Shown here in pieces: positions 10,804-58,407 of a stretch of 64,000 nt of DNA. This DNA comes from Deltaproteobacteria bacterium. Lineage in GTDB: Bacteria; Desulfobacterota; Desulfarculia; JACQYL01. The stretch is taken from positions 1-64,000 of the forward strand of contig JACQYL010000013.1 in the NCBI GenBank assembly GCA_016208165.1. The letters are read 5' to 3'. The position numbers were made by a program, and so were the translations under genes. The first letter of the stretch is position 1; each line of letters starts with the position of its first letter. The notes beneath the pieces were generated by a model that saw only the letters and a list, made by a program, of their open reading frames with translations, was not told where the DNA came from and searched no databases.

Positions 10804-11112
10804 TTAGGACCGACGGTGATGCCGGCGGAACACGATAACAACGGCGCAGGCCATAAGCAGGCCCAGGATAGCGGCGCCCCACTCGTTTAGGGTGGGAACG
10901 ACCTCCCTTCTTTCAGTCACCGTGCTGTTGATCTGCATGGTGGTCAGGTTGACTTCGGAAGATGCGCCATTGGAAAGCACATCCGACGCGCCCGTCGGTT
11001 GCACACTTTTGTCCGTAGAAGCGCTCAAAACCGGCAGCACGCCATATACCAGGACAAAACTCAGTGCAAAAACGACGACAATAACGAGCGATCTGTACTT
11101 TTCTTTACACAT
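10804..11112 (-). CDS. Small exosortase-type (PTLNEWG C-term) surface protein
   Basis: A 102-residue protein. Residues about 8-30 form a signal-peptide-like hydrophobic stretch ending LSAS. The middle is Ser/Thr-rich. The C-terminus has VPTLNEWG at about 71-78, a hydrophobic helix (AAILGLLMACAVVIVF) and the basic tail RRHHRRS. This triad of short motif, transmembrane helix and Arg-rich tail is the IPTL-CTERM type of sorting signal, recognised by exosortase-like enzymes. No exosortase lies in the window. The start codon sits in the first unit of a 27-bp tandem repeat. The function of the mature peptide is unknown. Confidence 0.75.
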   Translation of the reverse strand: MCKEKYRSLVIVVVFALSFVLVYGVLPVLSASTDKSVQPTGASDVLSNGASSEVNLTTMQINSTVTERREVVPTLNEWGAAILGLLMACAVVIVFRRHHRRS

Positions 11113-11184
11113 AAATTAAGTATACCTCTCTTTGCACATGAATTAAGTATACTTCACTTTACCCACCAACTAAGTGTACTTCAA
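11104..11184 (-). repeat. Three tandem 27-bp repeats copying the start region of the PTLNEWG gene
   Basis: Units 11104-11130, 11131-11157 and 11158-11184 are aligned copies. Read on the minus strand, the first contains the real start (ATG TGT AAA), the second ATG TGC AAA GAG AGG TAT ACT TAA (MCKERYT), and the third GTG GGT AAA ... TAA (VGKVKYT). Each unit also holds the palindrome AAGTATACTT or a close variant, so the array may be tandem operator sites, duplicated initiation signals, or both. Confidence 0.8.
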
Positions 11185-52554: not shown

Positions 52555-55044
52555 TTACATTTCCTCCGCCGAATCTTTTTGGGATTCTGCATCCTTTGTA
52601 TGGAAGCCCCAATATCCTTCGCAGTCCGACGCCTCGATGTCATTACAACTATAGCTTCTGGCCTTCTTTATGAAGTCCATGGCTTCCGTTCTGCGGGAAG
52701 GGTCGCATTTCGGACAACAGTAGAGAAAGTTCACGTATTGCTCGACGGCGTCTAGGGTATGGCCGTTTCCGGCAGCCTCGTTGCCCAATCTGAAATACGT
52801 ATCTCCGTAGGTTTCAAGCGAAACAGCGATGTGATCCGCAATCTCCCCAACCACGCCATCGACGACCTGGTTGGTTAATTCCGTATCGGACTTCAGGTTC
52901 AGCGGGTTGCCATGCACTCCCGCCGAAGGATTAGGGTTATCCACGTAATCATCTCCATCTTCCGCGGTCCTGCCTGCCGTATTTGAAAACAGAATGCTTC
53001 CGGTCGGGACGTCAACGGCTTGGCAGGTTACGGAAAGGGAACAAAGCTTCGTAACCTGGTGAATGCGGTAGTGCCATAGGCTATATACCGGCACGTCTAT
53101 GTATGCGTCCGTGTACAGAAATCTGTTTTGAGCGGATCGCAACTTGCGTTCCAAAACCTCCAACTGTCTTTCTCGCATGCTCAATCGGCTCTTTATATCG
53201 TCAATGCCTCTCCTGCTGCCGTCCATGTCCGATTTAAGCGTTCCCAATGTAGCGAGTACGTCACCACAGTTTCTATATTTTGAAGACTCTTTGCTATGTG
53301 CGTAACTCCTGCACCACTCCACGTCAAATGAGCGGCTAAAATCATTGTATGTCTTTTGGGCGCTGTAGGCTTTGCTTTGGGCGTCATTGTATTCAGCCCT
53401 GTAGCGCGAGACGTAGTCCCTTTCGCGACTCACCTTGTCCTGCAGGTCCCAGACGTCCTGTTGTGCATCGTAGTAGGTGTAGTTTTTGACTTGCCTGGCG
53501 CCGGATTGATATTTTTGCGACGTTGAGGTGATCGATTCCTGGAAATATATCCGGAAGGAAGAGACCTGCCCCCTGATGATCGCACCCACGGCTTGAATTC
53601 CGCCGGCGGGTAGCGCCCCATCCGGATCCGCCAAATTATTCATACTCAGACGCTGTTTTTCTAGGATGTTATTCAACGTTCGTCTTTCCAAAATTTCTAT
53701 ATGCTCCATGCCGCGCCTTACGAGCGAGTCCAGAAGTCTATCGCTCAAATTCTCGGCGACGGCGCAATCTTTCGAGCGGTTCGAGAAGGGAAGCAGCGCC
53801 ACCTTGTAAGCGGTGCGCTTGGCTATCAGTTGCTCGATGGCGGCTGCTTTTTGTCGAGCATTGGCGTAGTCCGGGTCCATGAGCAATGCTTTCCTGAATT
53901 CGATCAGCGCATTGCCCGGTTTGCCGGCGGTTTCGAAATCCGAGCCCTGCCGGTAGAAAATGCCGGCTAATCCTTCTCTGGCAACAGAAAAATCGGGCGC
54001 GCACTCGAGGGCCGAAGTGAATTCCGCCACGGCTCTTCCCGCATCGCCCTCGTTCAAAGAGGCCAGGCCGTCGGAACTGTGTTTCGCGGCCGCCTCGACC
54101 AGTGCTTTTGCCAGCCTGTTCTTTGAAAGAGCGTGGTTGGGATCAACGTCCAGGGCCTTTCTGTAGACTCCAATGGCTTCATCCCAGCGTTTCTCTTCGA
54201 AATAGGCGTCTCCGTTCAGGGAAAACAACTCCGCTTGTTTTTTGCTTTCGGCGGCCTCCTCGATTCGCTTTCGGGGCTCCTGAAAAAATGGACTGACTCT
54301 GATCGCCGCTTCGAATTGATCCGTTGCCGGATCCCAATCTTTCCGCCCGAAGAATTCCATCCCCCTGTCGTACAACACCTTGGCGGAATCGATCCGGTCC
54401 TGGGCCTCTCTGGCCTTGGATCTGGCAAGCACATGGCCCGGGTTGGTTTCTACGCACGCTCGAAATTCCTCTAAGGATTTGTTCCAGTCCTTTTGCTGAA
54501 AGTGGGACATACCCGTCCTGTATTGCTCTTCGGCTTTTCGCTCGTTTTCCTCCTTTGCCTTCAGAGCGATGTCCAACGCGTCCTGGGCGGCTCTATTGTC
54601 AGGATCCAGCTCGACCGACAGGGTCAATTCATCGACGGCCTCATAGAGCTTCCCGTTGCTCGCCAGGCTCAGCCCAGCCTGCAGGTGTACTTTCGAAGAT
54701 TCTTTACGCGCCTCGGCGAGTGCTTCCTTTGCCTGCGCATGACTCCGGTCCAGTTCGAGACACCGGGTGTACCGCCTGATGGCTTCATCCCATTGTAGCC
54801 GCTTTCCTAGATCCTTTCCCTCCTTATAGAGAACTTCGACGCGGGCCTTCCTGAGCCGCTCCTGGAACACGTCGTCATTCGCAAGCTCGGACTCTATCGC
54901 CAGGGCCTGTTCATACTCCTTTACCGCCGCCTCATAATCTTTCGCCGCAAACTGCTCGTTTCCATGTCTGATGTGGCGGCCGGCCGCGCAGGCGATCACC
55001 GATGCAATAGCGAGAACCAGGATGATTTGCAGCAGACGTTTCAT
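52555..55044 (-). CDS. TPR and CsgG-like lipoprotein
   Basis: 829 residues from ATG 55044, which has AAGGAG 8 bp upstream. The signal sequence ends in a lipobox (VIAC, Cys 19). Roughly ten TPR-type repeats fill residues 20-410. A CsgG/TolB-N-like domain follows (KVALLPFSNRSKDCAVAENL, ILERRTLNNILEKQRL, GAIIRGQVSSF). Next come a coiled-coil stretch (about 535-650) and a beta-rich part with VTCQAVDVPTGSILFSN. A further TPR-like region and a Cys-rich end (CCPKC, CNDIEASDCEG) close it. This suggests an outer-membrane or periplasmic assembly factor. The gene is 97 bp after the TPR gene and may share its operon. Confidence 0.75.
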   Translation of the reverse strand: MKRLLQIILVLAIASVIACAAGRHIRHGNEQFAAKDYEAAVKEYEQALAIESELANDDVFQERLRKARVEVLYKEGKDLGKRLQWDEAIRRYTRCLELDRSHAQAKEALAEARKESSKVHLQAGLSLASNGKLYEAVDELTLSVELDPDNRAAQDALDIALKAKEENERKAEEQYRTGMSHFQQKDWNKSLEEFRACVETNPGHVLARSKAREAQDRIDSAKVLYDRGMEFFGRKDWDPATDQFEAAIRVSPFFQEPRKRIEEAAESKKQAELFSLNGDAYFEEKRWDEAIGVYRKALDVDPNHALSKNRLAKALVEAAAKHSSDGLASLNEGDAGRAVAEFTSALECAPDFSVAREGLAGIFYRQGSDFETAGKPGNALIEFRKALLMDPDYANARQKAAAIEQLIAKRTAYKVALLPFSNRSKDCAVAENLSDRLLDSLVRRGMEHIEILERRTLNNILEKQRLSMNNLADPDGALPAGGIQAVGAIIRGQVSSFRIYFQESITSTSQKYQSGARQVKNYTYYDAQQDVWDLQDKVSRERDYVSRYRAEYNDAQSKAYSAQKTYNDFSRSFDVEWCRSYAHSKESSKYRNCGDVLATLGTLKSDMDGSRRGIDDIKSRLSMRERQLEVLERKLRSAQNRFLYTDAYIDVPVYSLWHYRIHQVTKLCSLSVTCQAVDVPTGSILFSNTAGRTAEDGDDYVDNPNPSAGVHGNPLNLKSDTELTNQVVDGVVGEIADHIAVSLETYGDTYFRLGNEAAGNGHTLDAVEQYVNFLYCCPKCDPSRRTEAMDFIKKARSYSCNDIEASDCEGYWGFHTKDAESQKDSAEEM

Positions 55045-55100
55045 GGTGCGGGACTCCTTCTGTTGGTGAGAGCGCATTCGCCGGGGGGAAACTCTTGAAA

Positions 55101-55140: not shown

Positions 55141-56490
55141 CTACGGCTGACGCGGTTCCGTGGCGGAGCGGTCGCCGATCTCCCTTCTAATGGCCAGAGA
55201 TTGTCGGAGGTAATCCTGGGCCGTGTCGTATTCGCCTCTCGCCAAGAGGGTGGTAGCCATATTGTTCAGGGTGACGCCCTCGCCTTGTCGGTCGCCGATC
55301 TCCCTACTGATGGTCAGAGATTGTCGGAGGTAATCCAGGGCCGTGTCGTATTCGCCTCTCGACAAGAAGGTGGTAGCCATATTGTTCAGGGTGGTCCCTT
55401 CGCCCTTGCGGTCGCCGATGGCCCGTTGTATGGCTAAAGCTTGTTCGAGATACTCCACGGCCGTGTCGTATTCGCCTCTCGCATCATAGACTTGGGAAAT
55501 ATTGTTCAGGGTGGCGCCCTCGCCTTGTCGGTCGCCGATCTCCCTACTAATGGCCAGAGATTGTCGGAGGTAATCCAGGGCCGTGTCGTATTCGCCGTGG
55601 ACTTTGTAGATTTGAGAAATATTGTTCAGGATGGTCCCTTCGCCTTCGCGGTCACCAATCTTCTTTCGGATGGACAAAGACTCCTCAAGGTAACTCAGGG
55701 CCGAGTCGTATTCGCCCCTAACTTTACAAACTTGTGAAATATCGTTTAGTACGTCCGCTTCGCCCTTGCGGTCGCCGATCTCCCTACTGACCCGGAGGGC
55801 GTCATTGTAGGTGCCGAGGGCCTGATCGAGGTCACCGATCAAAACGAGTTTGTCACCAAGAGCCGACATCAACTCCGACGCTAATTCCTTCGATCCGTGT
55901 CGCTTGGCGCTCTCCACCTCCTGCTGCAGACGCGACACCTCTTTCTTCAAGCGCTCCACGGCGGAAGGACGAGATCGGTCTATGGCTTCCGGATTTATCT
56001 CCATGCGCAGGAGTGCGCTTCGCATCGAGTGGAAGTCCTTGGCCCGAACACCAAGGTCTCTCTCCAGCTCGGGGTCGAGAAAGAGGATCAGACAGATTCG
56101 TTTCTCAAACACAGCCTCCCGCCTCACGTTCAGTCCCGTCAGCAGCGACTGCCGGAGGTCCTCTTCGCGGGGCGGTGGCGGGAGGATTCCTACGAGGCGC
56201 GGTCCTTCGATCTTTTCGGACTCCGGCCACGGCAATCCGCTCAACACATCGGGACCGGCGGCTAGGTCAGTCAACAATGAGCGCCAGGCCGGGCTCAGTC
56301 TATTGGTGATTTCGCGCCAGAAATCCTCGGCATAGGTCAAGGATGGAAGGGAAACGAGGAAAATGCCGCCTCGGTTGCCGCTGAGCTCCAGCCGTTTCGC
56401 CAGTTCATCGAGCCGACGGATCGTCCGAAGTGAAAGCTCTATTTCCTTCTCGTGATCCGCTCGATCAGCACGCTGTGAGGTCTCAGCCAC
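55141..56490 (-). CDS. Tetratricopeptide-repeat protein of an ATPase/TPR pair
   Basis: A 449-residue protein. GTG start with GGAGG 4 bp upstream; its first 52 bp overlap the ATPase gene. Residues about 1-160 form an alpha/beta domain ending in the segment VRREAVFEKRICLILFLDPE, ERDLGVRAKDFHSMR, which resembles the N-terminal region of TPR proteins that partner STAND/AAA ATPases (the stretch usually reading aPDlWs.R). Residues about 205-440 are six 40-residue TPR_12 repeats, each with EYD.AL.YL..SL.I...IGDR.GE. The overlapping gene order indicates a complex with the ATPase. The biochemical function is unknown; a sensing or scaffold role is inferred. Confidence 0.8.
   Translation of the reverse strand: MAETSQRADRADHEKEIELSLRTIRRLDELAKRLELSGNRGGIFLVSLPSLTYAEDFWREITNRLSPAWRSLLTDLAAGPDVLSGLPWPESEKIEGPRLVGILPPPPREEDLRQSLLTGLNVRREAVFEKRICLILFLDPELERDLGVRAKDFHSMRSALLRMEINPEAIDRSRPSAVERLKKEVSRLQQEVESAKRHGSKELASELMSALGDKLVLIGDLDQALGTYNDALRVSREIGDRKGEADVLNDISQVCKVRGEYDSALSYLEESLSIRKKIGDREGEGTILNNISQIYKVHGEYDTALDYLRQSLAISREIGDRQGEGATLNNISQVYDARGEYDTAVEYLEQALAIQRAIGDRKGEGTTLNNMATTFLSRGEYDTALDYLRQSLTISREIGDRQGEGVTLNNMATTLLARGEYDTAQDYLRQSLAIRREIGDRSATEPRQP
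55160..55800 (-). repeat. 120-bp tandem TPR-coding repeats
   Basis: At least five units of 120 bp (40 codons) run through this stretch with very high nucleotide similarity, for example the repeated GTGTCGTATTCGCC segment. Such DNA is prone to unequal exchange, so repeat number could vary between strains. Confidence 0.8.
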
Positions 56491-57761
56491 TTGTCCTCCG
56501 CGTTGGTATATTCCATCAGGGCAACACCGTTGAGGAGTTGCAGCACCGGGGAGTCGGGGCTGTCGTAGGTGTCTTTTGCCTCGGCCGGACGCCAGTAAGG
56601 ATTCTGAAGCACTTCCTTAAGGACGTCCCACTGCTGCTGTGTGGGATTGAATTCGTTGGCCCGTTCGATGGCGGCATAGTCCACATCGGAGACTTCCACC
56701 CTGGTGGAGCTTTCCCGCAGCAGTGCTTTGAACACGGATTCGCGGGCGATGCGCAGGGTTTCCCGGAAATGCCCGCTGCCCAGTTCCACGACCCGGCCCA
56801 GTGCTTCCTTCGTAATGCATGGCTCCGGCAACCTGCGCCTGATCAACGCCGTCAGCAGCTCGCGGTTTCTCTTCGTTGCCTCCGAGAAATTGCCATTCGG
56901 TTCAACGAGCTTGAACGCAGGAAAGGGCCTGGCTGCGCCCAATCGCGTGGTAATGGCGGAAAAGCGGCCCGAACAGGCGACGGCCTTATCCACTACGAAA
57001 AGGGCCATGGCATTGAGCCGGCTCAGGTGGTATCCCTGGTCTTCAAAGAGGTGAAGGGCTTTATCGATTCGGGGTTTATCCGTGTCATGGACCAGGAACA
57101 GTAAGCGTACGTCATGACCGATCCGGGTTTCAATGGCCGTCATGGTTTCATTGATTCGTTCGATGAGTTGGCCCATCTTTGGTTCAAAGGTCTCGCGAAC
57201 CTTTTTTCTGTTCTCGAAGCTGACACGATAGTTGGCTTGAAACCCGGCCTTGAGCCATTGGAGCATGGACGGGAGGGATATCCCGGCGTCCGCCTTTATG
57301 TCGCCTCCGCGACCCTCCTCTCGGGTGATTTCTGTCTTTAGAAGCCCCCTCAGCTCCTTGTAGAGTCCAATCGCTCCTTCAAGGGCGGATTCGTCCAAAT
57401 GAATCCCTCGGGCGAAAGCCTTGTCCATAGCGGCTGTCATGGCCCCGATCATGATGTCGATCGCCTCGATGTCATCGGGGTTGGATACCTCCTTGATAAA
57501 GAGAGGCACGATAAGAAAATGCTCTTTCAGGTCCGGCCGCACCTCCAGGCAGTTGAGGAGCGTCGATTTTCCGCAACCCACATGGCCGTGGATCAGCATC
57601 TTTCGGCCCTCTCCTTTGAGGAGGATCAGTTCCGTTGCCAACTGGGTCAGGAAGCCGTCGATCAGTTCACGGGCCAGCCGATGATCGTCCGGAGCGAGCG
57701 GTTGAAGGTAGTCAAGGTCCTTGTAGGCTTGTTCAAGATGCTGGTGCGAACACGGCCGCAT
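56439..57761 (-). CDS. P-loop ATPase of an ATPase/TPR pair
   Basis: About 440 residues from ATG 57761 (GGAGAAGGG just upstream; a longer start at 57794 lacks an RBS). The Walker A motif MLIHGHVGCGKSTLLNCLE sits at about residues 54-72. The Walker B-like strand RLLFLVHDTDKPR (about 216) is followed by a sensor-like VDKAVACSGRFSAITTR, and a helical C-terminal part contains GSGHFRETLRIARES. The overall layout is that of AAA/STAND-type ATPases. It is the first gene of a minus-strand set: ATPase, TPR protein, TPR lipoprotein. Its precise family is not recognised. Confidence 0.75.
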   Translation of the reverse strand: MRPCSHQHLEQAYKDLDYLQPLAPDDHRLARELIDGFLTQLATELILLKGEGRKMLIHGHVGCGKSTLLNCLEVRPDLKEHFLIVPLFIKEVSNPDDIEAIDIMIGAMTAAMDKAFARGIHLDESALEGAIGLYKELRGLLKTEITREEGRGGDIKADAGISLPSMLQWLKAGFQANYRVSFENRKKVRETFEPKMGQLIERINETMTAIETRIGHDVRLLFLVHDTDKPRIDKALHLFEDQGYHLSRLNAMALFVVDKAVACSGRFSAITTRLGAARPFPAFKLVEPNGNFSEATKRNRELLTALIRRRLPEPCITKEALGRVVELGSGHFRETLRIARESVFKALLRESSTRVEVSDVDYAAIERANEFNPTQQQWDVLKEVLQNPYWRPAEAKDTYDSPDSPVLQLLNGVALMEYTNAEDKWLRPHSVLIERITRRK

Positions 57762-58056
57762 ATCCCTTCTCCTCAAGTTTATCCGAAAAAACATCCGTCC
57801 CGGTTATTCAGGCATGTATTCGAAATACTACAGGATTTGGTGAGAAAGGCAAGAGGTTTCATGCATCGAGGGATGGCGCCAAATACTATGGCAAAGGTGG
57901 GCCGCCCATCAGGAGGCGCTCGGCCATGGGGGAAAAACAGCCTTAGTATCGTGGTTATTTATGCGTCGGCTTTCGTGACGTTCTGACTTGGATGTCATCA
58001 TCCGGGCACAAAGGAAAGGCGCGTTGAAAGTCAGGAAGGCGTCGGGTCAAGCGGCC

Positions 58057-58407
58057 TCAGATCGAGCGAAGATCCACCACCGATCTTTTGCCGTCGTCGA
58101 AGAGACGATTGAAGGTTTCCTTATTGACTTTGAAGCTGACGACACGGGACCGGTCTCCGGGGTGCGACCGATTCTGGTCCGCGGCCTGCGCCGTGGCGAA
58201 CAGCTTATTGGCGTTGTGCTTCAGCGAGGCCTTGGACGCTCGCCTGCCCCTGAGGGACAACCGAAAGACGGTTTCAGGCTGCGTCTCGGGGGAGGTGGGC
58301 TGGGAATCTCCTCCTCCGCCACCGCAGGAAGCGCCGACTAGCCCTGTTGCTACAACCGCGGCGCTTACCGCAAGGAATTCTCGTCGTGTATAATCGCTCT
58401 TCGCCAT
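58057..58407 (-). CDS. Small Tat-exported lipoprotein
   Basis: A 116-residue protein with a twin-arginine motif (TRREFLAV), a hydrophobic stretch and a lipobox-like GASC with a glycine run (signal about 1-27). The mature part has a motif-rich stretch, FRLSLRGRRASKASLKHNAN, then LFATAQAADQNRSHPGDRS, that I recognise as a recurrent conserved stretch but cannot assign to a function. Tat export usually means a folded or cofactor-bearing partner. A near-consensus promoter lies about 210 bp upstream. Confidence 0.7.
   Translation of the reverse strand: MAKSDYTRREFLAVSAAVVATGLVGASCGGGGGDSQPTSPETQPETVFRLSLRGRRASKASLKHNANKLFATAQAADQNRSHPGDRSRVVSFKVNKETFNRLFDDGKRSVVDLRSI

Follow-up and report, generated by a model that had tools for sequence, protein, structure and literature searches.

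The closest described systems are the STAND/NLR proteins (Apaf-1, CED-4, bacterial NACHT and nSTAND proteins and the archaeal STAND-TPR protein 6mfv), in which a P-loop switch of the ORC/Cdc6-STAND fold class is combined with superstructure-forming repeats; nSTAND2, a predicted two-gene system of one active and one eroded STAND NTPase (PMC8195603); and the VMAP/iSTAND ternary systems (2020, PMC7159879), in which a constant core is combined with variable modules, mainly in multicellular bacteria. A pair of overlapping genes from a 64,000-nucleotide stretch of DNA (the window) was compared with these systems. The pair, a P-loop ATPase and a TPR protein (the partner), probably forms a split, NLR-like signal-transduction module, a description that is supported as anatomy.

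Layout of the locus

Overlapping ATPase and TPR genes had been reported in a preliminary description of the window, and both reading frames were found on the minus strand, sharing 52 bp. Their features are as follows.

56439..57794, minus strand: ATPase gene, 451 aa from the ATG at 57794 (440 aa from an alternative ATG at 57761)
56439..57794, minus strand: predicted STAND/ORC-Cdc6-like switch, consisting of P-loop domain, long helical insert, helical region and C-terminal winged-helix-like end, without repeats
57561..57587, minus strand: Walker A (GHVGCGKST; residues 59-67, numbered on the 440-aa form), with Gly59 and Lys65 invariant across the alignment
57078..57104, minus strand: Walker B strand, LLFLVHDTD, residues 220-228; His225 in place of the family Asp
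56832..56834, minus strand: Arg310, invariant among aligned ATPases
56763..56777, minus strand: sensor-2-like motif SGHFR, residues 329-333 (family consensus GGHVR); Gly330 and Arg333 invariant
56495..56499, minus strand: Shine-Dalgarno-like site GGAGG, 4 nt upstream of the partner GTG and within the ATPase gene
56439..56490, minus strand: overlap of the two genes, 52 nt
55141..56490, minus strand: partner (TPR protein) gene, 449 aa, GTG start; N-terminal alpha/beta domain and TPR array
55951..56451, minus strand: conserved partner domain, about 165 aa, alpha/beta, no P-loop
56119-56121 and 56035-56037, minus strand: partner Arg124 and Asp152, both invariant in alignment A3
55141..55860, minus strand: six 40-aa TPR units with a 120-bp period and 240-bp higher order; last unit truncated

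The overlap is consistent with translational coupling of ATPase and partner. The GTG start of the partner is supported because GGAGG sits four bases upstream, and no other standard start codon was found upstream of the partner domain.

The pair is flanked on one side by the gene for a TPR-CsgG lipoprotein and on the other by ssb, tRNA-Ser, dnaX and recR; neighbouring window ORFs encode SSB, DnaX, the TPR-CsgG lipoprotein and a DUF2461 protein. The lipoprotein (52555-55077, minus strand; 840 aa, with TPRs and a CsgG-like stretch) follows the pair on the same strand after a gap of 63 bp, and no convincing terminator was found between its gene and the TPR gene, so that co-transcription is possible. 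A CsgG-like lipoprotein gene was not seen adjoining the other pairs examined. A small ORF (58057-58407, minus strand) encodes 116 aa, in which a Tat-type signal sequence was the only feature recognised. Elsewhere in the window, TRF identified a 258-bp unit in two tandem copies, 81% matching (1968-2478), and an AT-rich 27-bp tandem repeat of 3.3 copies lies at 11096-11183.

Motifs and fold of the ATPase

Both Walker motifs had been attributed to the ATPase. Walker A (GHVGCGKST) is intact; Walker B, which reads LLFLVHDTDK, is kept only in part, His225 occupying the first acidic position. Among 95 family members this position is Asp in 92 and Glu in two, and His occurs only in the window copy. 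The His225 codon (CAT, 57087-57089, minus strand) could mean that the Mg-coordinating acid has truly been lost, or could stem from an error in one base. Taken at face value, the altered motif suggests slow or absent hydrolysis, as in a nucleotide-binding switch rather than a motor, and would weaken a claim of active ATPase. Lys65, Arg310, Gly330 and Arg333 are among the residues invariant in the ATPase alignment, and Arg310 is possibly a trans-acting arginine.

The AF2 model of the window ATPase had a pLDDT of 87 and a pTM of 0.86; alignments for structure modelling were built without rows from plasmid records. The best PDB matches of this model in Foldseek were Orc/Cdc6, Apaf-1, CED-4, TnsC and the NRC4 resistosome, and ORC/RuvB/RFC-like AAA+ matches were also returned. 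E-values for Orc/Cdc6, Apaf-1, CED-4 and NRC4 ranged from 6e-8 to 4e-4 with whole-chain TM of only about 0.3-0.4, and the matches therefore give the fold class and not a close family. Model and matches agree on an NBD-helical-winged-helix switch architecture. The ATPase is accordingly modelled as a stand-alone, repeat-free, nucleotide-driven switch of STAND/ORC-Cdc6 type.

The window ATPase scored below the cut-off of every Pfam and NCBIfam model and had no convincing PADLOC or PHROGs match. Many family members showed weak, partial profile similarity to KAP NTPases, Pfam ATPase_2 / nSTAND_NTPase5, PADLOC mad8 and PDC-S20, and one of them passed the KAP cut-off. The mad8 profile matched 21 of 31 family members (best 1.4e-9) and did not match the window ATPase.

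The partner protein

The N-terminal alpha/beta domain proposed for the TPR protein (residues about 14-180) was modelled mostly at good confidence, within a partner model that is confident overall. It lacks a P-loop, although its strands and helices alternate in an arrangement that a P-loop-like fold would allow. The domain is conserved in other ATPase-paired proteins, confirming the similarity to ATPase-associated TPR proteins that had been suggested for this segment. Arg124 and Asp152 are invariant in a 16-sequence alignment of the domain, and Arg124 remains invariant in a larger set. No convincing match to the domain was found in Pfam, NCBIfam, PADLOC, PHROGs or PDB sequences. Derivation as an eroded copy of the ATPase received no support from hhalign (probability 0.3-1%, two alignment sets). 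In Foldseek the whole partner was dominated by its TPRs, which masked the N-terminal fold; the TPRs of LGN and kinesin light chain were closest, and the STAND-TPR protein 6mfv appeared at rank 36.

TPRs were identified in the C-terminal half by Pfam TPR_12 (E = 1.2e-54), and TRF gave periods of 120 and 240 bp with scores of 580-659. At least six near-identical units had been noted: six are present, but they are not near-identical. Identity among units 2-5 and the complete portion of unit 6 is mostly 55-75% at the protein and 65-84% at the DNA level. Unit 1 has diverged further, to 28-40%, and the last unit stops abruptly after GDR. The draft assembly has 142 contigs, and it may contain a collapsed repeat array or a base error. 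A pN/pS of 0.64 across the repeats (few sites) is consistent with some protein-level constraint; the ratio was 0.87 in helix A versus 0.52 elsewhere, on too few sites for a claim of selection.

Recurrence and co-evolution of the pair

Absence of the two genes together in other genomes had been named in advance as evidence against a module; they were found together. In 395 genomes of the window's phylum, a profile built from the window ATPase and its relatives on cyanobacterial plasmids gave clear matches that were each followed by a gene with the N-terminal domain of the window TPR protein. Independent searches of the same 395 genomes with the ATPase and partner-domain profiles returned the same seven genomes, locus by locus, and an eighth (G116) carries the pair in diverged form. 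One genome per species was scanned with cyanobacterial ATPase queries alone, yielding at least 541 confirmed relatives, and 79 cyanobacterial loci were kept. The partner gene lies directly downstream of the ATPase in 76 of these; two of the three exceptions stop at a contig end and one is a true orphan (L104). The order ATPase then partner, on the same strand, holds in nearly all loci, with an overlap of 4 nt in many non-Nostoc cyanobacterial pairs and of 11-83 nt in most pairs of the window's phylum.

Tree distances of ATPase and partner domain were correlated overall (r = 0.955, 0/5000 permutations), within the phylum (r = 0.80, 1/5000) and within Cyanobacteria (r = 0.74, 0/5000). The two genes travel and evolve together, and do so in bacteria that are only distant relatives. 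Chance pairing was ruled out by the reciprocal searches and the tree correlation.

In the window's class the pair was found in one genome of 63, that of the window itself, and it was therefore probably acquired there. A single-sequence search of genome contigs with the window ATPase gave no match. Phage records and one scan of viral contigs yielded no pair, a result of little weight for a system of the host. At other loci (G417, L080, L113) the ATPase is present as fragments carrying stops or frameshifts.

Variable C-termini of the partner

The partner ends in TPRs in the window and in G064, G093, G100, G116 and G417, and in NACHT at other loci of the window's phylum, in one case also with pentapeptide repeats. 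Cyanobacterial partners end in TPR and nSTAND1, often with WD40. The window partner and nine others, scanned individually, gave TPR, NACHT, pentapeptide and nSTAND1 only, and one was without a match. Judged from these domain assignments, the C-terminal module is interchangeable (TPR, NACHT, TPR-nSTAND1-WD40). Across 18 Nostocales loci, mean identity was 85% for the ATPase, 76% for nSTAND1, 73% for the partner domain and 56% for the TPR part, and the C-terminal part ranged three-fold in length, from 375 to 1101 aa. This pattern suggests a conserved core with a variable sensor.

Two arrangements depart from one ATPase with one partner. A Calothrix plasmid (L004 5824-13107) encodes an ATPase, an ATPase-TIR fusion and then a partner with two tandem partner domains; the TIR, at the C-terminus, is the only such fusion among the ATPases examined. 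The matching copy numbers hint at one docking (partner) domain per ATPase. In Moorena (L110 and L111), one ATPase is followed by two different partner genes, one of the WD40 and one of the TPR-nSTAND1 type, as though a single switch served two receptors.

Genomic context

A neighbourhood survey had been proposed on the expectation that the pair would recur inside defence islands. The pair recurred, but candidate defence or conflict settings were seen at some loci only: many Nostocales copies have leuCD or chlI as neighbours, and that of the window is surrounded by housekeeping genes. In G417 (L122 2016-10715, L128 407-5538) genes for a helicase, an AlbA-like protein, an HmaB-type methylase and an HmaC/DUF499 ATPase form a run on one strand, and the pair closes this run at its 3' end. 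The helicase and AlbA-like assignments were made by reading of the sequence; the ATPase of the pair is interrupted by a stop codon. The helicase-AlbA-methylase-DUF499 set has been described as the candidate system Hma (PMC8565338), and the same set among BREX-related DUF499 systems (PMC12839542). Models for PDC-S02 and RmrA matched near the G064 pair, and on Acaryochloris plasmids the neighbours are NB-ARC, TIR, NACHT and HicAB genes. On a Nostoc plasmid (C057; L024 1997-7170) the ATPase homologue forms the C-terminal part of a SAV_2336 N-terminal protein; VMAP (VMAP-M1, VMAP-C) and MoxR genes adjoin this fusion, with FGE and HEAT genes nearby.

In about 25 Nostocales loci the upstream neighbour, identified by eye, is leuCD (14 loci) or chlI (11 loci). 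Such adjacency suggests copies that have been retained vertically and not a mobile defence element. The window pair itself shows no effector domain. The NLR-like arrangement split over two coupled proteins, as first proposed, thus holds for the anatomy (switch fold, repeats, recurrence, NACHT and nSTAND1 fusions); with this mixed context a defence role is plausible and not established.

Proposed mechanism and alternatives

In the split NLR-like module, the partner domain would dock on the ATPase and the TPR array would bind a ligand that is probably a protein or peptide. On binding, the ATPase would change in nucleotide state or assembly, and the signal would pass to an effector encoded outside the pair. 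Numbers of ATPases and docking domains may match, as in Calothrix (two each). The most likely setting is a response to biological conflict, for example phage or mobile-element sensing, a view held at slightly less than even confidence. We tentatively suggest, with a little less confidence again, that the pairs represent a distinct, unnamed split-NLR class present in several phyla, with a conserved switch ATPase and a new docking domain carrying interchangeable sensors (TPR, NACHT, nSTAND1-WD40), so that one sensor could be exchanged for another while the switch stayed as it is. No named family for the pair was found in the main text of the papers covered.

The main rival is a host regulatory or developmental module (signalling stress, differentiation or cell-cell state) that uses NLR-like parts and takes no part in conflicts with phages or plasmids. 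The wide distribution in filamentous cyanobacteria, stable chromosomal positions beside leuCD and chlI, strong conservation of the Nostocales ATPase and the housekeeping surroundings of the window copy all favour it. It is nevertheless unlikely, if still to be reckoned with, given the helicase-AlbA-methylase-DUF499 operon of G417, the homologue fused into a VMAP ternary system, the TIR fusion, the conflict-type neighbours on Acaryochloris plasmids, the sporadic occurrence in the window's phylum and class and the variable sensor part. A separate question is whether the window copy itself is degenerate, a horizontally acquired module losing function. Its Walker B His, found in no other of the 95 members, the last TPR unit broken off after GDR, the lack of relatives in the 62 other genomes of the class and the interrupted ATPases elsewhere would fit such decay. 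We regard it as improbable: both frames are open over 449-451 codons, overlap and Shine-Dalgarno site are undamaged, the protein retains Walker A, Arg310 and Arg333, the repeat pN/pS is consistent with some constraint (few sites), and a single-base error in the draft assembly could mimic the Asp-to-His change.

Two further readings concern the identity of the pair. It could be an nSTAND2 system (Kaur et al., 2021) in which repeats replace the GT4/HEPN effector, as would suit a two-gene operon of a P-loop protein and an alpha/beta partner without a P-loop, an invariant Arg in each protein and a variable C-terminal module on the partner; the missing profile similarity between partner domain and ATPase, and the lack of GT4 or HEPN among partners scanned one by one, make this distinctly improbable. 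The ATPase could also be a remodelling or assembly chaperone with the TPR protein as cargo adaptor and no threshold-type signalling. The resemblance of the array to the cargo-binding arrays of LGN and kinesin light chain and the ORC/RuvB/RFC-like matches speak for a chaperone, but NACHT, nSTAND1 and TIR fusions in the family point to signalling and Walker B is degenerate in the window copy, so that this reading is very unlikely.

If the split NLR-like reading is right, NLR-type receptors are commonly assembled in bacteria from two proteins, one a switch that can be reused and the other a sensor that can be swapped, with the link between them made by a domain without a name in any library searched. 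Across cyanobacteria and further phyla, hundreds of genes now annotated as 'AAA family ATPase' and 'WD40/TPR protein' would then belong to one system. As each half can be produced, mutated and replaced independently of the other, the pair would offer a clean test of how a repeat array controls a STAND switch.

Comparison with known systems

The pair differs from KAP, ATPase_2, nSTAND_NTPase5, mad8 and PDC-S20 in that none of these models passes its cut-off for the window ATPase. No other genes of the Mad system (MADS) were noticed among those examined. The two-gene operon, the presence of a P-loop in one protein and its absence from the other, the variable C-terminal modules and the conserved Arg in both are shared with nSTAND2 (PMC8195603). 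Set against the description of that system, the pair is unlike it in having a partner domain without ATPase profile similarity, and TPR, NACHT or WD40 rather than GT4/HEPN.

No MoxR, vWA or VMAP gene adjoins the window pair, and MoxR and VMAP were seen only at the Nostoc plasmid locus. At that locus the ATPase homologue is fused behind the SAV_2336 N-terminal region as in VMAP/iSTAND ternary systems, whose constant core and variable modules the family also resembles. Unlike STAND/NLR proteins, the window pair has no fused N-terminal effector domain and divides switch and repeats between two proteins, which a dedicated partner domain would join. A definition by one polypeptide fails for it, and no ORF in the loci examined matched both the ATPase and partner profiles. 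Like STAND/NLR proteins, the pair combines a P-loop switch of the ORC/Cdc6-STAND fold class with superstructure-forming repeats, and partners elsewhere in the family carry NACHT or nSTAND1.
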